DNA of 24,712 nt, taken from a virus. Positions 3,207 through 24,528 of this stretch are shown here, in pieces. The notes under the pieces were generated by a model. That model had not been told where the DNA came from. It saw only the letters and a list, made by a program, of their open reading frames with translations, and ran no database searches. The DNA lies in the IMG/VR virus record IMGVR_UViG_3300042474_000439, positions 1 to 24,712 of that record; one strand, given 5' to 3'. The stretch's first letter is position 1, and the number at the start of each line of letters is the position of its first letter. The translations under genes were made by a program, and so were the position numbers.

Positions 3207-3232
3207 GTCACAAATTTACGAATAAATGTGAC
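3207..3232. promoter_or_regulatory. -7 box and overlapping dyad before the scaffold gene
   Basis: The 46-bp gap between portal and scaffold genes holds TAAATTTG on the minus strand (3211-3218), a TAnnTTTG match 21 nt before the scaffold ATG. It overlaps an inverted repeat with arms GTCACA-AATTT and AAATGTGAC. No U-tract follows the dyad, so it is not a classical terminator; an operator is possible. Confidence 0.45.
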
Positions 3233-3235
3233 ACG

Positions 3236-5665
3236 CTATTTTGGCTCAAATGACGCTAGGTCAAAGCCATCAAGGGTGTCCTCATTCGACTCGAAATCGA
3301 CCGGTGGCAAGTTGTTTTTTCTTTGCTCGATCAATTTTGATTGCTGTGTATTCTGAATAGAAATCCGCTTGTCTTTAGCTTCTTCTTTCATTTTTTCTTT
3401 GTCGTTAATCATACTAGCGTCAACGCCCTTCAACTGCATGTTCATCTGAAACTCTTGCTGCATTAATTGCAACTTAATTTGAGCTTCCTGTTGCATTGTT
3501 TGAACTGAGAACATCGACTCTGCCTCCTTGATGCGGATCTTAGACTGTGTTTCTGCTTCGATCTGTGCCATCTTGGCCTCGGCTGCTGCCTGTGTAGCTG
3601 CAATGTTAGACTGAGACTGGAACTGAGACATCATCTGCTGTTTCTCCATGTCCTTCTTCTCCTTGTCCTTGCGCTTAACCTTCAACAACTGGTTAGCAAC
3701 CTTCAAGTTCTTGATCTCGCGGATGTCGATTGCGTCCTCAAGGGCGATCTGGTCACGGCTCAATGCCATCTGGATGTTTGCCTCAAGCTGTTGCTTCTCC
3801 TCTTCGTCAGGCGAAACCTCGATGAAGATACCAAAGTCGTGCAAGTAAAGGTCCTTGATGCTGTCTAGGATCTGGATGTTATACTTACCGATCTGGTTAG
3901 CGAACTCCTCACGGAACTCAGCGTACTCTAAAATGTCAGACACACGGCAAGACAATGCCTCAGACAACCTGCGTGTGATGAAGATACCACCATCAAGAAT
4001 GTGACGAGTTGCAGTGTTTGAGTTAGCGGCTGCCAGCTTCTGTACGCCCACCAAAGCATCGGCGCTAGGCATAGACCCGTCGCGTGCTTCGTTAAGCCCT
4101 GTAACGTCGCGTAGCATTCCCATGTACTGGTTGTATGCTGAGATCAAGCTAGAGATTTTACCCTGTGCTGCACTGTGGTTCAGCTCCTGGATTGGAACAC
4201 GTGCGTTGTTGAACTCACCGTCCTGTGTATAGCTACGTCCGATTACACTACCCGTTTGGAAGTACATGCGTAATGCATCCTCTGGGTTGTAAGCGGCACC
4301 GTTGCCAAGGTCAACCTCGTTCAGTCCGTCGGCGTCAATAAACACACCATCTGGTACCATCTTGGTCAACACCTGTTGCAACTTAAGGTGAGTCATCTGG
4401 ATCAAGTCAGCGAACGCTGTCATCCTGCGGCCCAAAGACTCGATGGCTCCCTTGTACATACGAGGGGCTACCATCACGTAATTTGAGTACGCATACTGTG
4501 ACGCAGACTTGGGGCGTGCCATGTTCTTGGACAACTCCCACTTGATCAATTTATTTGAGCCAAGAATCAAGATGCCCTCGTACCAAACGTCAATACGCTT
4601 CTCGATACGCTCGAATCTTTCCTCTTGGTCTACTGGAGGGTTGAAGCTCTCGTCCTTACGGATTATACGCTCCCCACCGCTTTCTAAGAACTTCTTCTTG
4701 TATACGAAGGTCTTGTCAGTTTTGTAGTTAAAGTACAATAGGGTTACAACGTCCTTGTCGAACAAGTCGTTCCTGTATGTACGCATGATGCCATAGTAGT
4801 CCCACCAAGCAGATCCGAGCTGTGACGCTTCTTCTAGTTCTGCCTTTGTGATGTCTGGCTTGATCTTGATCAGCTCAGTGATCGGAACCTGTTTTACTTC
4901 TCCCCAATAGAATACGTCGTCGAAATAGGGTGACTCGGTGTAACTGTATACCAAGTTGGCGGGGTCGACATATTCAACCTTAACTCCGGCTCCTGGTAGA
5001 AATGAGTGCTTTGCACCACCGATACCCAGAGTGGCAAGGTCGTAATCGATACGTTTTTTAGTGTCTGCATAGTTGTTCTGTTCAAGTAGAGTATTGATTG
5101 CTTGCTCTTCTGCAATCTCGATGCTTGGCTTATATTTCAACTGCATGTAAAGTTGCAACTCCTCATCGTTTGATGGAAGCTCCTCTACATTGGTGTTGAA
5201 CGCGTCTACGCCAAACTGTTCCTTTGTCTGTAGCAAGAAATCCTTAGCGACCATGTCGCCTTCGATCATGTCTTGGAACTGGTTACGCTGATCTGCCGCT
5301 AGTGCATCTTGCGCTACGGCCTTTACTGAAAAGTTTCTATCAGCCATTCCATTAACAACAATGTCAATGAACTTAGGCATGATAGGTACCGGTGTCCAAG
5401 AAAGGTTTAAATACGATAGGTCTCCATCGAATGACATCTCCTTTTTGTACTTCTCAACGGACTGCTCTCCGCGTGCATACAGGCGCAAACGGTGGAACTC
5501 CACCCACTGGTTATAGAACCTGCACGAGCCTGCGTCTTTTCGGAACCACTCCGACTGCACCGCTAACCCAACCTGTAGACCGAACTCTTTAGACGCCTTC
5601 TCAGCGTCCGTGGCCAGCTGGCTTGGGAAGGTAGTTGCATTGATTATTATTTTTGGATCTGTCAT
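3236..5665 (-). CDS. Portal protein
   Basis: 809 residues. Position directly after the large terminase (TAATG, one-base overlap) and size fit a phage portal, the dodecameric ring through which DNA enters the head. The N-terminal 620 residues look like a portal core: an early segment with WVEFHRLRLYARGEQSVEKY, the wing and clip region with beta strands, and around residues 500-560 a helical stem-like region containing RDVTGLNEARDGSMPSADA. The last 150 residues, from about 650, are a long Gln/Met/Lys/Glu-rich coiled coil (KEKKDMEKQQMMSQFQSQS and onward), which probably forms an extended crown or barrel inside the head. The length is above that of many portals because of this tail. The exact portal family was not established. 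Confidence 0.85.
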   Translation of the reverse strand: MTDPKIIINATTFPSQLATDAEKASKEFGLQVGLAVQSEWFRKDAGSCRFYNQWVEFHRLRLYARGEQSVEKYKKEMSFDGDLSYLNLSWTPVPIMPKFIDIVVNGMADRNFSVKAVAQDALAADQRNQFQDMIEGDMVAKDFLLQTKEQFGVDAFNTNVEELPSNDEELQLYMQLKYKPSIEIAEEQAINTLLEQNNYADTKKRIDYDLATLGIGGAKHSFLPGAGVKVEYVDPANLVYSYTESPYFDDVFYWGEVKQVPITELIKIKPDITKAELEEASQLGSAWWDYYGIMRTYRNDLFDKDVVTLLYFNYKTDKTFVYKKKFLESGGERIIRKDESFNPPVDQEERFERIEKRIDVWYEGILILGSNKLIKWELSKNMARPKSASQYAYSNYVMVAPRMYKGAIESLGRRMTAFADLIQMTHLKLQQVLTKMVPDGVFIDADGLNEVDLGNGAAYNPEDALRMYFQTGSVIGRSYTQDGEFNNARVPIQELNHSAAQGKISSLISAYNQYMGMLRDVTGLNEARDGSMPSADALVGVQKLAAANSNTATRHILDGGIFITRRLSEALSCRVSDILEYAEFREEFANQIGKYNIQILDSIKDLYLHDFGIFIEVSPDEEEKQQLEANIQMALSRDQIALEDAIDIREIKNLKVANQLLKVKRKDKEKKDMEKQQMMSQFQSQSNIAATQAAAEAKMAQIEAETQSKIRIKEAESMFSVQTMQQEAQIKLQLMQQEFQMNMQLKGVDASMINDKEKMKEEAKDKRISIQNTQQSKLIEQRKNNLPPVDFESNEDTLDGFDLASFEPK

Positions 5666-11233: not shown

Positions 11234-11799
11234 TAGACCCTAACATAAATACTCTGACCGTTTCCTGTGTGGTCAATTGTTCCAGATGATGCACTTGCAC
11301 CGGGCGCTACTTGATACGGAGAGCCACCGAAGTCTGTCCACGTACTCCCGTTGTATGAGTACTCTACGGTTACTGTAGGGAACGGAGGAGGACCGGGCGT
11401 TGCGATAAAGTTAACTTGTAGGGTTATCTGGTCCCAGTGTGGAACACCGCCACCACCCTGTGTGGTATTTGGTGGTACTCCGTTGACCGTAAAAGGAGAT
11501 ACGGCAGGATTTAGTCCTGGAGTACCTATACCAATCGAGTCAATAACTTGAAAGTCGCAACTTGTAAGGCTTGCTGGTACGGATGACTGCACTTGGAAAG
11601 AGTATCCTACCTTGGCCTCTAGGTTGTAGAATCCGCTCATCTTGATGGTTGTTTGGTCCACGTAGCTGTAGGCATCAGCGTAGCCATCAAACAGCTTGTA
11701 GTCGTTGAACTGCGAGAACAGGGATGGACTTGGAGTTGTGATGTCCAAGTCCGTTATCAAGTCCCCGATGAGTATTACTCCAGATGTTGGTGTGCTCAT
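11230..11799 (-). CDS. Beta-rich fibre-associated protein (189 aa)
   Basis: 189 residues with few charges and many Ser, Thr, Gly and Pro. The first half contains strands such as DQTTIKMSGFYNLEAKVGYS. A Pro/Gly-rich linker (PNTTQGGGGVPHWD) follows. The last 60 residues look like an Ig-like or jelly-roll domain (TVTVEYSYNGSTWTDFGG and GNGQSIYVRVY). It follows the giant fibre gene with a 4-bp ATGA overlap, so it is likely made with it. Candidate roles are a fibre tip, a fibre-assembly protein or a receptor-binding accessory. None is proven. Confidence 0.8.
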   Translation of the reverse strand: MSTPTSGVILIGDLITDLDITTPSPSLFSQFNDYKLFDGYADAYSYVDQTTIKMSGFYNLEAKVGYSFQVQSSVPASLTSCDFQVIDSIGIGTPGLNPAVSPFTVNGVPPNTTQGGGGVPHWDQITLQVNFIATPGPPPFPTVTVEYSYNGSTWTDFGGSPYQVAPGASASSGTIDHTGNGQSIYVRVY

Positions 11800-14700
11800 T
11801 TCTTCAATTCATTAATCTCTTGTTGCATTCTTTCGATTGTAGCCTGTTGTTCTTTCATTCCCTCAATTAAGAGTGCGATCATGTTAGAGTACGCTACGTT
11901 CAGAGTGCCGTCTGGGTTAGCAGAGACAACCTCTGGCAGCACCTTCTGTACTTCCTGTGCGATAACACCGGCCCTTCTTGTTCCTGTCTCATCGTCTGTA
12001 CGCACGTAGGTGTAGCCGTTCAGTTCTTTTACCTTCTCAATGGCATTCTCAATCCTCTTAACCTCTTTCTTAACTGTGATATCAGAGAACGCTGCAATGT
12101 CATGAGACGCATAAATAGAGATCCCAGATGTATTCCCTTCTACGTGTAGGTTGTATGAAGGAGTAGTAGTACCTATACCTACGTTACCTGTCTTGGTTAT
12201 TCGCATACGCTCAGTAAGCGAACCCCCATTAGGGTGAGTTGAAAAAGAAAGATTAGACCCAGTATTCGTACCAACGATCCCCGCCCCTAAATCTGTTAAT
12301 TCGTCTTGAACACTGGCTACAAAAGAATTTTGATAACCCGTAGAGTTTTGTCCTAGGAATACAACATATCTCACTCCACCATTATTACCCGGACTCTTTA
12401 CGTGAAGTATTTCAGCAGGACTAGTAATACCAATACCTACGTTTCCGCCATTTTTTAGATATAATTGAGTTGTAGAACTATTAGCTCCTAAACTTAAGTC
12501 TACACTTGAGTTTGTATAAATTTTATGTAACCCAGTGTCGTCTGCATTTAATATTAAAGTATTGGTAGGGGCTGCTTGAGTAACATACACACCCCCTCTA
12601 GCTTGAGCTATGCCTTGAACAGATAAGGTAAATGTTGGACTAGTAGTACCGATACCTACGTTGCCTGCACTATTTATTATTACCTTGTCGTTATTATTTA
12701 CTCGGAATCTTATGTTATAACCAGTCTTTGAATTAATAAACGTTTCTCCATCATTTGCAGATAGAAAAGAATATTCACCAGCTACAGCTCTTGATGTATG
12801 GGAAAATTGTGCATTTGCTGATGTATATGATGGAACTTCACCAATAAATGCGTTGTTTATTATTCCATCACCTCCACTAACTTGAAACTTAGCCCCAGGA
12901 CTAGTAGTACCTATACCTACGTTTACATTTGTAGAGGTATAAATGCGTTGATTTCCACCGTCTAAAAATAATTGCGTGTACGCACCGCTACCATTGCTAT
13001 TTTGTATTCTAAGAATTCTTTCACCAGATGAATTACCAACTTGTTCAATGTATTGACCGCTACCATCAGTTCCAGTCACTATATATCTTCCTGCTCCACC
13101 TTGAAATATTGCAATATTTCCAGTAGTGCCAGTTACTACGTGAAACTTAGATGACGGAGTCGTAGTACCTACACCCAAGTTGTCATAAACAATCAAACTA
13201 TCTTCAATAGTTGTTAGCTGATTTACAAACAATGTTTCGTTTATATATGCATTTCCAGATACGTGAAGTTTATAGTTAGGACTAGTAGTACCTATACCTA
13301 CGTTGCCATTATTAAGTATTCGCATCACCTCTCTTTGAGTAACAATGTTGTCGGTTACTACAGATGATGTCGATACGTTAAAATACATTTCACCAGCACT
13401 ACTCACTCCTACATTTCCAGAATACCCTGTTGTCCCTGCTTTCCATCCGCTGTTATAATACTGATTGAATCCGATAATTGGATCATCGTTTATTATATAA
13501 ACTGGCCTTGCTGTACCAAATCGTGCTGTTGTATTACTATACGGGGATGTTCTAACGTCCAATCCAGTTACTGGACTAGTAGTTCCTATACCTACGTTTC
13601 CGCCAGTAGTAATACGCATTGCTTCTGAGTCACCTGGGCTTAACGCAATAAATCCTGGAGTGTTAAGAGCCAAATGATTATAGTACCCTATTACCTCACC
13701 TGTTCTAGATCCATTGTTTTGAAAAGCCAGTATGGGATATGAAGATGCATTTATAGTTACTGAAGTAACACCTGTACCTGCATACGGATTAGTCGTATTA
13801 ACTCCAATATTCCCTGCAGAGGTGATACGCATACGTTCACTTCCGTTAGTTCCAGCTACCCAAGTACTTGCAGCATTTAACGAAAGGTTACCTCCCATTA
13901 AAATTTTAGTATTAGCACTCGGTCCTTGAATTGTACTTTCGTCTTCAGTAAACGTCAATGCTGCTACTCCCCCACTATTATTTTGAGAAATAGTTAATTT
14001 TCCTGTTGGGCTAGTAGTACCAATACCTACTTTTCCCGAATAAGTCCAAGACATTATACTCAAATCTCCTTGAGTAGTGTGTTGTCTTCTTAAGACAAAA
14101 GCATCATCTGATCCTGATACGATTTTATAGGCAAAATCTGTATTAACTCCAGAATTTAAATACAACAAATCATTAGTTCCCGAAGTAACAATGCTTAATT
14201 TACCACTTGGACTAGTAGTACCGATACCTACGTTACCACTAGATAAAATACGCATCCTTTCTACAGATGCGGTGTTGAATACAATGTTATTTGGAGCAAC
14301 TGACGCCCCTCCTCCACCAACATAAATGGAAGTGTTATATCCGGATGTACTACCTGCAGTAATTGTAACTGATCCTGCGTCTGCACCAGATGTTCCTAAT
14401 GTTAAACTATATGGATAATTTACTGCGTTTAATGAATCTGACAACAATCCGCTAGTAAATCTACCCGTGCCAGTAACGTCTAAATTATAAGTAGGACTAT
14501 TATTCCCAATGCCTAATTTACCAGTAAAGTAATTTAAGTATCCGTTTACCTCTAACATTATAGTACCAGAGGTATTCCTTATCCTCAAAGCGTTTTGACT
14601 ATTGTCTACATCTATGTATGATCCATAAGTAAAGTTACCCCAAGAAAATCCTTGTCCAGACGATCCGCCAACAAAATAACTAGATGCTCTAACGTCTCCA

Positions 14701-17700
14701 ATTACATCTAACTTCCATCCAGGTCCGGTAGTACCAATTCCTACATTACCTCCGTTTATCCAGTTATTTCCGCTTCCTGTAAATCTAGCAAACTCAGTCT
14801 TTGATGACGTGTGATACAGATGAAACGTGCCTGCATCTGCAGAATCGTTGTTAATCCAAATCTTGAATGATTCCCAGGCTGATACTAAATGAGTAGAAGC
14901 ACCTCCAAAGGTTATGTGGTCTTCGGAATCTGACCAAATATTTAGCTTAGACTGAAACGTTGTTGATGTAGCGGTTGTTGCATCAAGTCCCCAATCTGCC
15001 CTTCTGTCTGGTCCTATTGTAATAGACTCACTTGAGTTTATAGCAATTGCATCACTAGCGTATGTTCCATTGCCAACAGTACCAGTAAGTACTGTCCCTA
15101 CATAGAACTTAATTGGTGGCGCAGTAGTACCAATACCTACGTTGCCACCCATATATGACATATTACCAGTAGTCATTAGGGCTAAATACGAAGTACTAAA
15201 TTGACCATTTCCAGCAAATACCGTATTATATCCAGACTCTGAATACATCACAGCTGACGGACTTATAGGACTATTACTCCAAGTGGTAATTAATTTTCCT
15301 AGTCTTGTTTCTCCATTTACATCTAGTTTATAAGCAGGACTAGTAGTACCGATACCTACGTTACCGCTTGAGTTAATGAACATATTATCTGTGGTACCTC
15401 CATTTACTCTAAATGAAATTCCACGCCCTGTTGCTGAAGCTAGGTATAGGCCGTCCGCTGTTCCGTCTTGTCCGAAGACTCTATTATATCCATTTGAGGT
15501 ACCGCCAAAACCTATAGTGGAGTATGCACCATATGTTCCATCGTTACCTATAATTGCTTTATAGTTACTTCCAAATCTAGCTTCTCCTACAACGTCTAGT
15601 TTGTAACCTGGACTAGTAGTACCAATACCTACGTTACCGTCTCCGGTAATACGCATACGCTCAGTATTTGTAAAAAATCTAATAGGTCTACTTGAACTAT
15701 CTGTTCCAATAATAACTCCTGTATCTGAATTTCCCTGATACCATCCTGCTGCACCAAAATATGCATTTGGAGTTCCATTTTGATATGCTAAAAACCCCCC
15801 TCCTCCAGTAGCTCCAGTATTATAAACGCTTATACTATTGTATGCTCCGGAAGTTGTAGCTCTTATATTACCAACAACTTCAAGTTTGTCAGCTGGACTA
15901 GTAGTACCAATACCAACATTACCTCCATTTGTAACAGTTAGTACATCTCCAGCTGTATTGTTTCCTAAAGAAAGATTTGCACCAAAGCCATATACTCTTA
16001 CATTGTTACCTGCGTTGGGTCCATAATCTAGATGCCCTCCAACATAAAAAATTCCATCACTTCTCCAACCAATACCACCTACCCCCGCACCATCATTTCT
16101 AACAAAATTAACATTACTGTAATTACCCGAAGCACCAACAGTAATATTTCCTGTAATATATTGATTACCAACTACATGGAGTTTTTGACTAGGACTAGTA
16201 GTACCTATGCCTACATTACCTTCAACTATTAATCCATTTGATGGAGGTGTTACAAAGTAATTGACACCAATTGTAGCACCTGCTCTTATATGAGAGGTAT
16301 AATCACTACCGCCCTTAACTACAAAGGCAAACCCCCCACTAGATCCGTCAACCCTAAGTCCTTCACTGCCTGATCCTGTAGAAACAATGTCTAACTTAGC
16401 TCCAGGAGCAGTAGTGCCTATACCTACGTTTCCGTTACCCGGCAAATACATTGTACCTCCAGAAAGACTTACTAGGTCAGTTGTATTATTACCTATGTAA
16501 CTATTATCTGAGTTAATATAAACATTACCTCCATTAAAAGTAGCATTTCCGTTTACTCCTAAAGTACCATTTACTTCAAGTTTATATCCTGGACTATATG
16601 TACCTATACCCAAACTACCTTGAGGAATAGATAAGTTTCTCCAACCAATACCTGTTCTTACAGCCGCTATTAATCCAATATCATTAGTATAATCGTAACC
16701 AATTATTGTTTTGTATGCAGGATCTGAAGCTGAAGCAGCAGCAATAGCATAAGTATTTTCATTAGTTGGGCTAGCATCACTTGTAACTACTAATTTATTT
16801 GCAGGACTAGTAGTACTAATACCTACGTTGCCGCCAGAGGTTATTCTTACCCAGTCTACAGTGTGAGAAGCATTTCTAAAAATATGATTATCTGCGCTAT
16901 AATAATTATTTCCGTCTGTATATGGGAACCAGTTATGATATTCAGTATTTCTAGCCAACAAGTTAGCCCCACCTGCCCCTGCTGCTACAGATATTCCTGT
17001 AGGACTAGAATGTGGTGAAGTAGTATATACTGATAGTTTTGCTATAGGACTAGCAGTGCCTATGCCTACGTTACCATTATTAATTACAAAGTTTGCACCA
17101 GACTCTAAAGTTAATGCTAAGTTATTTGCCGTAGATCCATCATTGTACCCCATGTATCCTACACGACCAGGGCCTGGTTTAAACCATTCTACATAACCTT
17201 GTACTGTTGCTCCTCCTGTCTGTAATGCAACATATCCGTATGTTGATCCCAAAGATGCTCTAATTTCTCCAGCCACTTGTAATTTAGCACTAGGACCAGT
17301 AGTGCCGATACCAACGTTTCCACCTTCAAGAACAGTAATAGCTGTATTGGCCCCTAATGTTTTATTGGTCAAGGACCATCTGTCCATTCCTGTTCCAAAT
17401 GGATTTAATCCAGCAATCCATTGTCTAGTATATGTAGATGTTACGCCTGGGTACCCCGTTCCTCCAGCAGCCCATACAAATCCAACCTCCGCATCATTAG
17501 GGTTTGCTACCGCAGACTGACCCCAACTACTATCTGTAGTTCTTGAAAGAGATTTCCCTCCGTCAACGTGAAATTTTACTGCTGGAGCAGTAGTACCTAT
17601 ACCAACGTTACCTGCACTAGCTATATATAGCATTGCTGGCGTTGTGTCACCGTCTGCAGAGAATCGGATATTGCTAGTTCCAGCATATCCCGTCTTTATA

Positions 17701-17960
17701 TTCAAGTCTGCTTCCGAACCGTGAGTAGCAGCATTAAAGTATCCATACCATCCTTTAAATGTACCTCCACTACTAGTAAGTCCCATATGTACACTGCTTC
17801 CTCGTAGGTTTAAAGTACCAACTGCTCCAGCTCCAGTACCTACAACTTGTAAAGGAGCATTAGGCGTACTAGTTCCAATACCTACTGTCCCCAATACATA
17901 GGCATTCTGTTCCACGCCAAGATTAGCCTTGGCGAGTATGTCAGTTATAAATTTTCTCAT
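11796..17960 (-). CDS. Giant repeat tail fibre with C-terminal S74 intramolecular chaperone
   Basis: 2054 residues. After a short N-terminus (MRKFITDILAKANLGVEQNA) there are about 24 imperfect repeats built around GNVGIGTTSP followed by a short strand such as YKLDVNG, spaced roughly 40-130 residues apart. Between them lie variable beta-rich segments rich in Ser, Thr, Asn and Gly. The last about 100 residues match the S74 / endosialidase-type intramolecular chaperone: AFSDITVKKEV with the Ser1959-Asp1960 cleavage pair and a following Lys1964, then RAGVIAQEVQKVLPEVV, LNVAYSNMIALLIEG and a coiled coil. Such domains drive trimer folding and then cut themselves off, so the mature fibre would lose the last 96 residues. 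The repeats suggest a long segmented shaft. Spacing is 9 bp after the 477-aa gene and a 4-bp overlap with the 189-aa gene. Confidence 0.9.
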   Translation of the reverse strand: MRKFITDILAKANLGVEQNAYVLGTVGIGTSTPNAPLQVVGTGAGAVGTLNLRGSSVHMGLTSSGGTFKGWYGYFNAATHGSEADLNIKTGYAGTSNIRFSADGDTTPAMLYIASAGNVGIGTTAPAVKFHVDGGKSLSRTTDSSWGQSAVANPNDAEVGFVWAAGGTGYPGVTSTYTRQWIAGLNPFGTGMDRWSLTNKTLGANTAITVLEGGNVGIGTTGPSAKLQVAGEIRASLGSTYGYVALQTGGATVQGYVEWFKPGPGRVGYMGYNDGSTANNLALTLESGANFVINNGNVGIGTASPIAKLSVYTTSPHSSPTGISVAAGAGGANLLARNTEYHNWFPYTDGNNYYSADNHIFRNASHTVDWVRITSGGNVGISTTSPANKLVVTSDASPTNENTYAIAAASASDPAYKTIIGYDYTNDIGLIAAVRTGIGWRNLSIPQGSLGIGTYSPGYKLEVNGTLGVNGNATFNGGNVYINSDNSYIGNNTTDLVSLSGGTMYLPGNGNVGIGTTAPGAKLDIVSTGSGSEGLRVDGSSGGFAFVVKGGSDYTSHIRAGATIGVNYFVTPPSNGLIVEGNVGIGTTSPSQKLHVVGNQYITGNITVGASGNYSNVNFVRNDGAGVGGIGWRSDGIFYVGGHLDYGPNAGNNVRVYGFGANLSLGNNTAGDVLTVTNGGNVGIGTTSPADKLEVVGNIRATTSGAYNSISVYNTGATGGGGFLAYQNGTPNAYFGAAGWYQGNSDTGVIIGTDSSSRPIRFFTNTERMRITGDGNVGIGTTSPGYKLDVVGEARFGSNYKAIIGNDGTYGAYSTIGFGGTSNGYNRVFGQDGTADGLYLASATGRGISFRVNGGTTDNMFINSSGNVGIGTTSPAYKLDVNGETRLGKLITTWSNSPISPSAVMYSESGYNTVFAGNGQFSTSYLALMTTGNMSYMGGNVGIGTTAPPIKFYVGTVLTGTVGNGTYASDAIAINSSESITIGPDRRADWGLDATTATSTTFQSKLNIWSDSEDHITFGGASTHLVSAWESFKIWINNDSADAGTFHLYHTSSKTEFARFTGSGNNWINGGNVGIGTTGPGWKLDVIGDVRASSYFVGGSSGQGFSWGNFTYGSYIDVDNSQNALRIRNTSGTIMLEVNGYLNYFTGKLGIGNNSPTYNLDVTGTGRFTSGLLSDSLNAVNYPYSLTLGTSGADAGSVTITAGSTSGYNTSIYVGGGGASVAPNNIVFNTASVERMRILSSGNVGIGTTSPSGKLSIVTSGTNDLLYLNSGVNTDFAYKIVSGSDDAFVLRRQHTTQGDLSIMSWTYSGKVGIGTTSPTGKLTISQNNSGGVAALTFTEDESTIQGPSANTKILMGGNLSLNAASTWVAGTNGSERMRITSAGNIGVNTTNPYAGTGVTSVTINASSYPILAFQNNGSRTGEVIGYYNHLALNTPGFIALSPGDSEAMRITTGGNVGIGTTSPVTGLDVRTSPYSNTTARFGTARPVYIINDDPIIGFNQYYNSGWKAGTTGYSGNVGVSSAGEMYFNVSTSSVVTDNIVTQREVMRILNNGNVGIGTTSPNYKLHVSGNAYINETLFVNQLTTIEDSLIVYDNLGVGTTTPSSKFHVVTGTTGNIAIFQGGAGRYIVTGTDGSGQYIEQVGNSSGERILRIQNSNGSGAYTQLFLDGGNQRIYTSTNVNVGIGTTSPGAKFQVSGGDGIINNAFIGEVPSYTSANAQFSHTSRAVAGEYSFLSANDGETFINSKTGYNIRFRVNNNDKVIINSAGNVGIGTTSPTFTLSVQGIAQARGGVYVTQAAPTNTLILNADDTGLHKIYTNSSVDLSLGANSSTTQLYLKNGGNVGIGITSPAEILHVKSPGNNGGVRYVVFLGQNSTGYQNSFVASVQDELTDLGAGIVGTNTGSNLSFSTHPNGGSLTERMRITKTGNVGIGTTTPSYNLHVEGNTSGISIYASHDIAAFSDITVKKEVKRIENAIEKVKELNGYTYVRTDDETGTRRAGVIAQEVQKVLPEVVSANPDGTLNVAYSNMIALLIEGMKEQQATIERMQQEINELKK
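12158..17895 (-). repeat. About 24 DNA copies of the GNVGIGTTSP repeat
   Basis: Read on the plus strand, GGACTAGTAGTACC followed by a short variable step and CTACGTTNCC recurs through the fibre gene, for example near 12634, 12898, 13280, 14210, 15336, 15610 and 15895. Several copies are almost identical over 25-30 bp while the sequence between them differs. The copies encode the repeat motif in the same frame, so this is a protein repeat, not a CRISPR array. Confidence 0.9.
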
Positions 17961-22056: not shown

Positions 22057-22064
22057 CAAATATA
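22057..22064 (-). promoter_or_regulatory. -7 box TATATTTG of the 85-aa gene
   Basis: TATATTTGTAG on the minus strand, 7 nt upstream of the ATG at 22049 and just after the stop of the 52-aa gene. No clear -33 match is seen. It probably starts the operon that runs through the small membrane and basic protein genes. Confidence 0.55.
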
Positions 22065-22067
22065 ATA

Positions 22068-22226
22068 CTAATCTTTTTTCTTCTTGTAAGGCACCAACTT
22101 GTTCAAAGCCTCCTGTCTGGCATCGCATCCGCAGTTTTCTCCGAATAAACTTTTCACCAATGCCTCTATTCCAGTCGCCTTTGTGATAACAGCTACGGTG
22201 TCTCCTAAGCCCTTTTGCTTCTCCAT
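22068..22226 (-). CDS. Small phage protein with ENCGCDARQ motif (52 aa)
   Basis: 52 residues: MEKQKGLGDTVAVITKATGI, then EALVKSLFGENCGCDARQEA and ending KLVPYKKKKD. The middle carries a Cys-x-Cys pair inside GENCGCDARQEALN. I recall similar MEKQKGLGDTV...NCGCDAR...LN-L-PY proteins in phages of Bacteroidota; their function is unknown to me. The frame is short and lies in the opposite reading phase to a longer spurious one, but the promoter and coherent sequence support it. It is the minus-strand member of a divergent pair with the plus-strand gene at 22266. Confidence 0.8.
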   Translation of the reverse strand: MEKQKGLGDTVAVITKATGIEALVKSLFGENCGCDARQEALNKLVPYKKKKD

Positions 22227-22230
22227 TTAA

Positions 22231-22261
22231 CAAAATTAGTTTAAATTTGTTACAAATCAAA
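22231..22261 (-). promoter_or_regulatory. Full promoter TTTG-N19-TAATTTTG of the 52-aa gene
   Basis: On the minus strand TTTG (22258-22261), 19 nt and TAATTTTG (22231-22238) match the Bacteroidota -33 and -7 elements fully. The box ends 4 nt before the ATG at 22226, so a leaderless mRNA is predicted. Confidence 0.75.
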
Positions 22262-22265
22262 CTAA
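22236..22265. promoter_or_regulatory. Near-palindromic putative operator in the divergent promoter
   Basis: TTAGTTT-AA-ATTTG, then TTA, then CAAAT-C-AAACTAA: arms of TTAGTTT and ATTTG repeat in reverse on the other side of a 3-nt centre, with one extra base in the left arm. It occupies the region from the minus-strand -7 box to the plus-strand ATG and covers both promoters. This is a typical place and shape for a dimeric repressor site. Confidence 0.55.
22242..22249 (+). promoter_or_regulatory. -7 box TAAATTTG of the plus-strand gene
   Basis: TAAATTTG on the plus strand, 16 nt before the ATG at 22266, and only 3 bp from the minus-strand -7 box, so both promoters cannot be used at the same time. 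No -33 TTTG at the usual distance. Confidence 0.5.
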
Positions 22266-22733
22266 ATGGACAACAAAGAACTAGCACAGAAGCTAGCGTA
22301 CATGCCGATCATATCGAAGTATGTACAACGTAAGTACGAAATTACAGCGGCGCAGATGAGCGTGCTGCTTTTCATCTACCACAAGCGGCTGTTCCCGCTA
22401 CGCCAGTACTTCAACTACAAGTGCATGTTCAAGTGGGAGGCCAAGGCGTTCCACGAGATGCAGCGCCGTGGTTTTATGAAGATTGCAAAGGAGTCGTCCA
22501 AGAAACTGGGCGTTATCTACGCCTCGACCCGCAAGACCGACAAGATCGTTGAGGAGTTTTTTGAGATGCTACGCGACGATGTCTACATCTCCACTGACCC
22601 GGAAGTGAACCCGCTGTTTAAGCGGGAAGACTTCCAAGACAAGGTGTTTTCTAATTTTATGAAGGCAATCAATCGAGAACGAGAACGACGTCCCGCTCCT
22701 GGATTATATGATACGGACGATTCTGAATTCTAA
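22266..22733 (+). CDS. Only plus-strand gene; winged-helix-like protein, unknown function
   Basis: 155 residues, MDNKELAQKLAYMPIISKYV then KYEITAAQMSVLLFIYHKRL and onward. Residues about 25-110 look like a winged-helix domain of MarR style: a helix ITAAQMSVLLFIYHK, a second helical part, KWEAKAFHEMQRRGFMKIAK and a beta wing followed by a helix KTDKIVEEFFEMLRDD. The C-terminal 45 residues are acidic then basic (INRERERRPAP) and unstructured. If it binds DNA, the palindrome at its own promoter is an obvious candidate site. It starts with the AAATCAAAC leader motif and its last 65 bp overlap groES on the other strand. The winged-helix call is by eye and may be wrong. Confidence 0.8.
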   Translation: MDNKELAQKLAYMPIISKYVQRKYEITAAQMSVLLFIYHKRLFPLRQYFNYKCMFKWEAKAFHEMQRRGFMKIAKESSKKLGVIYASTRKTDKIVEEFFEMLRDDVYISTDPEVNPLFKREDFQDKVFSNFMKAINRERERRPAPGLYDTDDSEF

Positions 22734-22932
22734 CGCCGTGTCCAGCACGCCTGTCGTAATAAACGACAGTTGTGGGCTGGATAGCCGCTATTACATCTTC
22801 TCCTACGTGGATGCACTCTGCCTTCCCATACCGCAGGTCGTTCTCGTCTGTTGATGTCATTATGAGCCCAGAGGAGGCTTTCGTCTCCTCTTTGATTGGC
22901 TCGATTACTATGTATTTTCCGATGGCTCTCAT
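22669..22932 (-). CDS. groES: Co-chaperonin GroES
   Basis: 87 residues. It follows the GroES pattern: strand YIVIEPIKEE, mobile loop about residues 15-30 with SGLIMTS (GroES IVL triplet here LIM), strand YGKAECIHVGEDV, a hairpin with VVYYDRRAG and a terminal strand with RDVVLVLD. The usual GroES length is about 95, so this is slightly short. It caps the GroEL ring and allows folding of captured protein. It overlaps the groEL stop by 4 bp (ATGA), so translation is coupled. It lies downstream of groEL, the reverse of bacterial groES-groEL. Its 3' end overlaps the 3' end of the plus-strand gene by 65 bp, in antisense. Confidence 0.88.
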   Translation of the reverse strand: MRAIGKYIVIEPIKEETKASSGLIMTSTDENDLRYGKAECIHVGEDVIAAIQPTTVVYYDRRAGHGVRIQNRPYHIIQERDVVLVLD

Positions 22933-24503
22933 TTGGCTCTTGCGTTAGTGATGATACAGTTGGTGCTCATAATGGTCGTTGCGACGCTTACGGCGTTCTC
23001 TAAGGCACTCTTGGTGACCTTGAGAGGGTCTATGATGCCCATCTCGATCATGTTGCCTACACGAGCCTCTTTCACGTCGTATCCGTATCCGAACTGTCCT
23101 TGATATCCCAAGGCGATGTCGCCCTTGATCTCGTTCGCGTCGTATCCTCCGTTTGCCAAGATGGTATTGAACGGCTGCTGCATGGCATGCTTGAGGATGT
23201 TCTTGGCTGTCGAGCAGCCACACATCTCACCTGCGATGTTTAGCAGCGCCACACCACCACCTGGCAGAATGCCTCCCTCCATGGCGGCCTTGGTCGCGTA
23301 CACCGCGTCCTCGACCCTGTCCTTCTTCTCTTTCATCTCCACGTCGCTCTGTGCGCCGACGTAGATAACACCAACACCACCTGCAAGGTTCGCCAAGCGC
23401 TCCTCTAAGTGCTTTTTCACGTACTCGTTGGTAGCTTCCTCCAATTTGGTGCGGATGGAATCGACGCGTGTCGCAACGCCAAGTTGTGACTCGTCGTCTG
23501 TCATGATCACCGTTGAATCCTTAGCTACCACCACCTTGTTGGCATGGCCCAGGTCAGCAAATGAGATGGTGAACAGGTTGTCGCCTGTCTCGTCAGAGAT
23601 GTACTTGGCGCCGGTTGCAGCCGCGATGTCCTCCATGATCTCGGAGCGGTTAGCACCGAAGCTTGGTGGAACGATGGCGCAGACCTTGATTACGCCCTTC
23701 ATCTTGTTCAAGTTTAGGCTGTTGAGAGCGTTCTCCGCCAGCTCAGCGATGATCAGTATGCTCTTTCCCTGCTGCACGATCGGTGCAAGCAAGTGCTCGA
23801 TGTTGTTCAGCGACGATATCTCCTGGTCAGAGACCAAGATGTAGCAGTCCTCGAGGATTGCTTCGTTCTTTTTCTGGTCCGTGATGAAGTATTTCGACAT
23901 GTAGCCCCTGCTGAGCTTCATGCCAGACACCACCTCTGAATAAGTTGTAGCGTTGTTTGATGCCTCAACCGTCACCACGCCGTCTTTTGACACCATGGTG
24001 TACGCGTCAGCGATGATCTGCCCCAGCTCTGGGTCGTTGTTGGCCGAAATGGTAGCCACAGACGCAAGCGACTCGTCGGTTACCGGTATTGCCATTGCGT
24101 CCAGTGCCTGCCCAACGGCAATTGCGAGGTCTTTCACCTCTCTGAGAACCTTTGTTGGGTTGTCCTCTGGCTTGATGAACTGCTGATAGCCATGGATCAG
24201 GGCCTGCGTAAGCACTACGGACGTAGTTGTACCGTCACCGGCAGCTGTTGCGGTCCTCTCAGAGGCCTCACGGACCATCTGCACAGCAAGATTCTGCGTT
24301 GGATCGTCCAATACGATGGACCTGGCAACGGTTACACCGTCTTTTGAAATTGCTAGACCATGTGTGTGTTGGTCGGACTCGATCAGAACAGTTTGTCCTC
24401 TTGCCCCTAGCGTTGACTTTACGGCGTTGGCTATAATATCTATTCCAGATACTAATTTTTCTCTAGCCTCAGCGCCGAATTCTACATTCTTTACAATATT
24501 CAT
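22929..24503 (-). CDS. groEL: Chaperonin GroEL
   Basis: 524 residues from ATG at 24503 (MNIVKNVEFGAEAREKL); a longer frame would run across the terminator upstream. All family landmarks are present: TLGARG (31-36, where E. coli has TLGPKG), KDG (54-56, Asp55 as D52), GDGTTT (89-94, Asp90 as D87), ISANND (152-157), GMKLSRGYMSKYF (194-206), the apical domain around 210-340 and GVIYVGAQSDVEMKEKKDRV (378-397) with Asp399 as the ATP-hydrolysis Asp398, and GPGGGVAL style GILPGGGVAL (411-420). The usual C-terminal Gly-Gly-Met tail is absent; the chain ends STNCIITNARAK. It probably folds phage structural proteins such as the capsid protein or the giant fibre. Confidence 0.97.
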   Translation of the reverse strand: MNIVKNVEFGAEAREKLVSGIDIIANAVKSTLGARGQTVLIESDQHTHGLAISKDGVTVARSIVLDDPTQNLAVQMVREASERTATAAGDGTTTSVVLTQALIHGYQQFIKPEDNPTKVLREVKDLAIAVGQALDAMAIPVTDESLASVATISANNDPELGQIIADAYTMVSKDGVVTVEASNNATTYSEVVSGMKLSRGYMSKYFITDQKKNEAILEDCYILVSDQEISSLNNIEHLLAPIVQQGKSILIIAELAENALNSLNLNKMKGVIKVCAIVPPSFGANRSEIMEDIAAATGAKYISDETGDNLFTISFADLGHANKVVVAKDSTVIMTDDESQLGVATRVDSIRTKLEEATNEYVKKHLEERLANLAGGVGVIYVGAQSDVEMKEKKDRVEDAVYATKAAMEGGILPGGGVALLNIAGEMCGCSTAKNILKHAMQQPFNTILANGGYDANEIKGDIALGYQGQFGYGYDVKEARVGNMIEMGIIDPLKVTKSALENAVSVATTIMSTNCIITNARAK

Positions 24504-24520: not shown

Positions 24521-24528
24521 CAAATATA
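24521..24528 (-). promoter_or_regulatory. -7 box TATATTTG of groEL-groES
   Basis: TATATTTGCAC on the minus strand, 17 nt before the groEL ATG. The leader has the AAAATCAAAT motif before the ATG. The box directly follows the U-tract of the upstream terminator; no -33 TTTG is seen at 19 nt. Confidence 0.6.

Follow-up and report, generated by a model that had tools for sequence, protein, structure and literature searches.

Genes and predicted promoter elements at the divergent gap

The window, by which we mean the whole 24.7-kb stretch of DNA analyzed here, is a fragment of a Bacteroidota podovirus genome. The terminase shares 71% identity with its counterpart in MW202828 (Podoviridae sp. ctfjg026, Manatee Spring) and 43% with those of Elemovirus phages of Flavobacterium. 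Intergenic spaces are very short throughout the window, and the minus strand holds all the well-supported genes but one. The exception encodes a 155-aa protein; this gene lies tail-to-tail with groES, followed by groEL, and is divergent from a 52-aa gene across a short gap. The first-pass annotation had called it the only plus-strand gene. This description fits the window, as well as the late block in two long relatives, but not the phage as a whole, whose early genes lie on the plus strand. In these two relatives, the 65-kb L001 phage and MW202828, it is the sole well-supported plus-strand gene inside a long minus-strand block. Elsewhere in the window, positions 11796-17960 (minus strand) encode a protein of 2054 aa that contains numerous GNVGIGTTSP-like repeats and is probably a tail fibre or adhesin; its positional counterpart in the L001 phage is 2455 aa long. 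The features of the locus are the following:

22068-22226, minus strand: 52-aa divergent gene (phrog_32048), the first gene left of the gap
22227-22265, both strands: predicted 39-bp divergent promoter gap, at the same position in L001 to L004
22228-22252, both strands: second dyad, TAACAAA-N11-TTTGTTA, across both back-to-back boxes; 4 IMG/VR contigs carry it, and these all belong to the window clade
22231-22238, minus strand: predicted -7 box TAATTTTG, back-to-back with the plus box; kept in L001 and L002 and present as TATTTTTG in MW202828
22236-22265, both strands: 30-bp near-palindrome, with core TAAATTTGttaCAAATCAA (22242-22260)
22242-22249, plus strand: predicted -7 box TAAATTTG, identical in L001 to L005
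22253-22260, minus strand: CAAATCAA, a putative decayed facing minus box (TTGATTTG) where relatives have the conserved CAAANNTA
22258-22261, minus strand: TTTG, 19 bp upstream of the minus -7 box; parted from the box by an insertion in L001
22266-22733, plus strand: gene of the 155-aa winged-helix protein, a likely regulator (phrog_17028; from the ORF, the PHROG match, and the predicted structure)
22669-22932, minus strand: groES, convergent with the regulator gene; the 3' ends overlap by 65 bp (22669-22733)
22929-24503, minus strand: groEL, with its own predicted -7 box TATATTTG starting at 24528

The gap (TTAACAAAATTAGTTTAAATTTGTTACAAATCAAACTAA) is flanked by the ATG of the minus-strand gene at 22226 and that of the plus-strand gene at 22266. 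Both starts are backed by conservation, the minus one by the N termini MEKQKGLGDTV, MNKHKGLGDTV, and MKSKGLGDTI and the plus one in L001 to L004. Promoters of the main sigma factor of Bacteroidota have the consensus -33 TTTG/-7 TANNTTTG (PMC6847099), with the -33 TTTG being a weakly conserved element in F. johnsoniae (PMC6847099). Such a -7 box (TAHHTTTG) was found on each strand of the gap. The coordinates of the gap, the minus promoter TTTG-N19-TAATTTTG, the plus box TAAATTTG, and the 3 bp between the two boxes are all as first annotated. Among the 25 TANNTTTG boxes of the window, only TAATTTTG has a full TTTG at 17 to 23 bp; the plus box has none at this distance upstream. The last G of the -7 box occupies position -5 relative to the start (PMC6847099). 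By this rule, the plus transcript is predicted to start at 22254, with a leader of 12 nt, and the minus transcript at 22226, the A of the ATG, which would make it leaderless. In flavobacteria, few mRNAs are leaderless (5.5%; PMC9723704).

The 155-aa protein has a predicted MarR/SarA-type fold

The 155-aa protein belongs to phrog_17028, a family listed as having unknown function and for which our analysis suggests a role in transcription regulation. Its sole match among annotated phages is a "repressor protein" of MW202828 (23.5% identity), likewise encoded beside groES. The window protein matched no Pfam entry at an E value of ≤1 and no curated family, and a search of PDB sequences with family profiles gave nothing convincing. 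The structure prediction that the first-pass annotation had proposed as a check returned a DNA-binding-type fold: an AlphaFold2 model built with 15 family sequences is a winged helix (pLDDT of 82.9), as is a second model of a family member built with 48 sequences (pLDDT of 89.2). The elements of the first model (helices 3-23, 28-40, 45-55, 59-67, 89-102, and 123-141; strands 42-44, 71-75, and 84-87) have the winged-helix topology with flanking helices of the MarR/SarA regulators. Foldseek and VIA-align returned mostly MarR-type matches for both models (Z of up to 10.7 for the first), with no Foldseek match to the PDB below an E value of 0.001. The earlier reading of the product as a winged-helix protein is thus borne out at the level of the predicted fold. 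The structural matches to MukF, HxlR, and SarX reflect the common winged helix and were not taken as indications of function.

Some relatives carry weak signals of their own: 13 of the 48 match the Sar family model TIGR01889 (best, 2.6e-4), 4 match PF22381 (best, 0.005), and 9 match a PHROG named "transcriptional regulator." Together with the predicted fold, the matches to the Sar model and to this PHROG make it likely that the 155-aa protein is a DNA-binding regulator. At position 61, in the helix 59-67, the window protein has an alanine where all of the 47 aligned relatives have an arginine, so its DNA preference may have drifted from theirs.

Symmetric elements in the gap and in the window clade

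The 30-bp near-palindrome that had been annotated over both boxes does exist; it is, by itself, statistically marginal (P of 0.03 to 0.11). It pairs as 7 plus 5 bp with a 3-nt loop and a 2x1 internal loop. We assessed it with three tests against dinucleotide shuffles: its folding as DNA (minimum free energy of -5.7 kcal/mol; z = -2.4) was equaled by 5 of 200 shuffles, and its palindrome score gave a P of 0.11 ungapped and 0.05 gapped, marginal values for an A+T-rich gap. The right arm is close to the leader AAATCAAA, which precedes other starts in this phage.

A second dyad, absent from the first-pass annotation, overlaps the near-palindrome. Its arms are perfect over 9 bp in the sister loci L002 and L003, and the distant MW202828 has a counterpart, GTCACAAA-N10-TTTGTGAC, whose arms are changed and still match each other. 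We considered a regulon built on this dyad and dropped it, since copies do not recur: the window holds one exact copy of GTnACA-N14-TGTnAC (3207-3232), TTTGTnAC is not clearly enriched there (9 versus 5.1 expected), and scans of MW202828 and the L001 phage revealed no set of copies. The single copy, GTCACAAATTTACGAATAAATGTGAC, overlaps the minus-strand -7 box TAAATTTG of a 373-aa gene that precedes the capsid gene; its length (26) equals that of the MW202828 dyad at the promoter of the regulator.

The back-to-back boxes are 2 to 3 bp apart in L001, L002, and MW202828. In the window clade, decay has affected the minus box that faces the plus box, whereas the minus box in the back-to-back position is perfect. 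In the window, the facing version is TTGATTTG, without the conserved A, and the AAATCAAA leader, frequent ahead of starts in this phage, also accounts for its sequence. The sister phage L001 encodes an identical 155-aa protein; there, an insertion of 33 bp runs through the palindrome and leaves the back-to-back boxes intact. This insertion (AGTTATTATACCAGAGGTATAACTACAGCAATA; ~4929-5000, upstream of the regulator gene at 5001) has a strong inverted repeat of its own. The working leftward box of the clade is most likely the back-to-back one, with a predicted leaderless mRNA for the 52-aa gene.

Facing -7 boxes in the gaps of related phages

Profile searches revealed at least 108 loci with a homologue, several of them from the same contigs. 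In nearly all of these, the regulator gene is tail-to-tail with groES/groEL, an arrangement that, by gene order, is maintained in a large set of phages of Bacteroidota. The gap is mostly 36 to 50 bp long, although the minus-strand gene varies among phages. According to the first-pass annotation, its proposal would be refuted by related phages having a gene at this place and no palindrome. Part of this was found: at six loci (L076, L079, L081, L089, L090, and L092), the homologue ends a groEL-groES operon and lacks the divergent gap, and in Elemovirus, whose Elemo phages infect Flavobacterium sp. BAL314, the homologue gp48 (L007, 9729-10421; NC_055852) is codirectional with the preceding genes, again with no divergent gap. 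This hypothetical protein also adjoins groES and has an N-terminal extension of ~70 aa relative to the regulator.

The relatives were represented by the best 80 of 561 hits, a sample that leans to one clade, so that the 55 nonredundant divergent gaps obtained from it are not independent. Facing -7 boxes of the form TANNTTTG-N0..7-CAAANNTA with at most one mismatch occur in 46 of these 55 gaps (shuffles: mean, 1.04; maximum, 3), and exact ones occur in 25 (shuffle mean, 0.06). The window enters the count of 46 with one mismatch, through TAAATTTGttaCAAATCAA. The other divergent gaps of the same loci, delimited with a crude ORF caller, had exact facing boxes in 0 of 39 cases and boxes with at most one mismatch in 2 of 39; both boxes were present at all in 2 of 39. 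At the genome scale (21 genomes of ~55 to 65 kb), the pattern TATCTTTG-N0..7-CAAANNTA occurs 11 times, and in 10 cases it lies immediately upstream of the single-copy regulator gene. The backwards pattern, used as a control, did not occur.

The spacing between the facing boxes ranges from 0 to 7, the commonest being 3 (e.g., TATCTTTGctaCAAAGATA). The plus box frequently ends in A instead of G, which often breaks the symmetry, and counts of perfect facing boxes therefore miss many relatives. Variable spacing and G-to-A plus boxes indicate that what is kept is the promoter pair and not a fixed dyad: a rigid operator in these gaps seems unlikely, and a bidirectional promoter would fit better. By the G at -5 rule, the predicted starts of facing boxes are ~2 to 9 bp apart, and each predicted start lies inside the other box in 46 of the 55 relatives; for the window, this is so only when one mismatch in the facing box is allowed. 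By its sequence, the core of the near-palindrome would be the window's decayed form of these facing boxes. At L040, L124, L167, and L177, a minus box is back-to-back with the plus box at ~14 to 16 bp, and in L040, L167, and L177, a facing minus box accompanies it.

A two-way promoter as the favored reading

We consider it probable, with modest confidence, that the gap serves the host RNA polymerase, with the main sigma factor of Bacteroidota, as a compact two-way promoter, that this enzyme loads one way at a time, and that leftward transcription turns the regulator down. Loaded rightward, the polymerase would produce the mRNA of the MarR-fold winged-helix regulator, antisense inside the late block; loaded leftward, it would produce the mRNA of the late genes left of the gap. 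In most relatives, the two predicted -7 boxes face each other. In the window clade, the leftward box would instead be the one back-to-back with the rightward box (3 bp apart in the window), and the decay of the facing box would have left the near-palindrome. The claim of the first-pass annotation that two polymerases should exclude each other is supported by the geometry of the boxes and is in line with previous descriptions (PMC12825309); loading would probably occur in one orientation at a time. The sequences show the boxes, their conservation and near-uniqueness per genome, the synteny, and the predicted fold. We infer that the promoters are active and exclude each other, that antisense transcription silences the regulator gene, and that the regulator binds the gap, the last being plausible for a MarR-type protein encoded next to its own promoter.

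The main alternative is that the near-palindrome is an operator bound by a dimer of the 155-aa protein, which would thereby repress its gene and switch the late genes, essentially the proposal of the first-pass annotation. The predicted MarR-type fold and the position of the gene beside its own promoter speak for it, and so does the dyad symmetry, which is kept through a matched change on both arms (GTAAC/GTTAC in L002 versus GTCAC/GTGAC in MW202828). However, this is one comparison, and the matched change may reflect similar sequences after both -7 boxes. The operator is further weakened by the marginal score of the palindrome, by the insertion that breaks it in L001 next to an identical protein, and by the asymmetric, variably spaced boxes of the relatives, whose symmetric element consists of two opposed -7 boxes; nor are there further dyad copies in the window, MW202828, or the L001 phage to form a regulon. 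The switch is also weakened by the homologues that lack the gap and by putative late promoters elsewhere: predicted -7 boxes precede late genes at 24528 (groEL), 22064, 20290, 11211, 10706, 10354, 3218, and 582, so the gap promoter cannot be the sole control point of the late genes. We thus regard the operator model as rather unlikely, and the palindrome looks, by its sequence, largely like a pair of opposed promoter boxes and not like a proven repressor site. Autoregulation by the 155-aa protein is still plausible given the modeled fold. On the minus strand, the boxes at 22064, 20290, 11211, 10354, and 22238 are just 4 to 7 nt before an ATG, from which leaderless or nearly leaderless mRNAs are predicted.

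A second alternative is chance and compaction, in which two promoters of a dense genome share a gap and the symmetry, made of similar boxes and an A-rich leader, has no regulatory role. It would account for the marginal P values, for the AAATCAAA motif before other starts, and for the very short intergenic spaces, but it is improbable given that facing boxes occur in 46 of the 55 gaps from the best 80 of 561 hits, are almost unique per genome, and are lacking in other divergent gaps. Finally, an activator contacting polymerase or sigma in the manner of T4 MotA and acting at other promoters, the gap being just the start of its own mRNA, is very improbable: MotA is among the tied top matches of the first model (1bja, Z = 10.2; 6k4y, Z = 9.9), the gene is kept where the gap is lost, and W57 and, outside the window clade, R61 are conserved at the surface, but MotA is absent from the list of the better family model, where MarR types and MukF appear, and there is no sequence match.

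Returning to the two-way promoter, the regulator gene lies antisense inside the late block in both of the long genomes that were examined. Transcription reading through from groEL-groES would therefore traverse it in antisense. If strong, leftward (late) transcription, this read-through included, would turn the regulator down, which makes a feedback between late transcription and the regulator plausible. A broader idea, unlikely at this stage, is that a large lineage of Bacteroidota podoviruses uses, in each genome, one bidirectional promoter together with the conserved single-copy winged-helix protein as an early-late switch, in which the protein would set the direction of polymerase loading and late antisense transcription would lock the choice.

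Comparison with known systems

Our literature search found no mapped promoters for this phage lineage. The locus offers a defined test case, an element of ~20 bp that is almost unique per genome and lies beside one regulator gene with chaperonin neighbors, and it opens the question of whether the orientation of polymerase loading is a controlled step in phage development.

The temperate phages P2 and 186 have a switch of face-to-face promoters beside a repressor gene. The gap resembles it in its two opposing predicted promoters beside a putative repressor gene, but the partner belongs to the late block and not to an early lytic operon. A lysogeny switch was considered as a further candidate; no integrase is named in the annotation of MW202828, where many genes are hypothetical, and the window is a fragment. 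Relative to the MarR/SarA regulators, the 155-aa protein shares the predicted fold and topology, and some family members weakly match Sar models; it differs in having a C-terminal NPxF motif and an extra helix and in belonging to a phage family, phrog_17028.

Among the divergent promoters of Escherichia coli, acrA/acrR and bioA/bioB (PMC12825309) also place two promoters in a short gap, and acrA/acrR includes the gene of a DNA-binding autoregulator. In the phage gap, in contrast, the operator is putative and the partner is a late gene that varies among relatives. The closest parallel is with the bidirectional promoters of bacteria described by Warman, Grainger, and coworkers (PMC12825309; PMC10268837), which are defined by divergent starts 7 to 25 bp apart and at which steric exclusion has been described, although competition between the opposed promoters was not seen at basal activity (PMC12825309). 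As in these, the predicted elements of the phages are opposed and overlap within ~20 bp, would give divergent mRNAs, and would exclude one orientation when the other is used. They differ in being TANNTTTG boxes of the Bacteroidota sigma factor and in the distance between predicted starts, which is ~2 to 9 bp when the boxes face each other, against 28 bp in the window.
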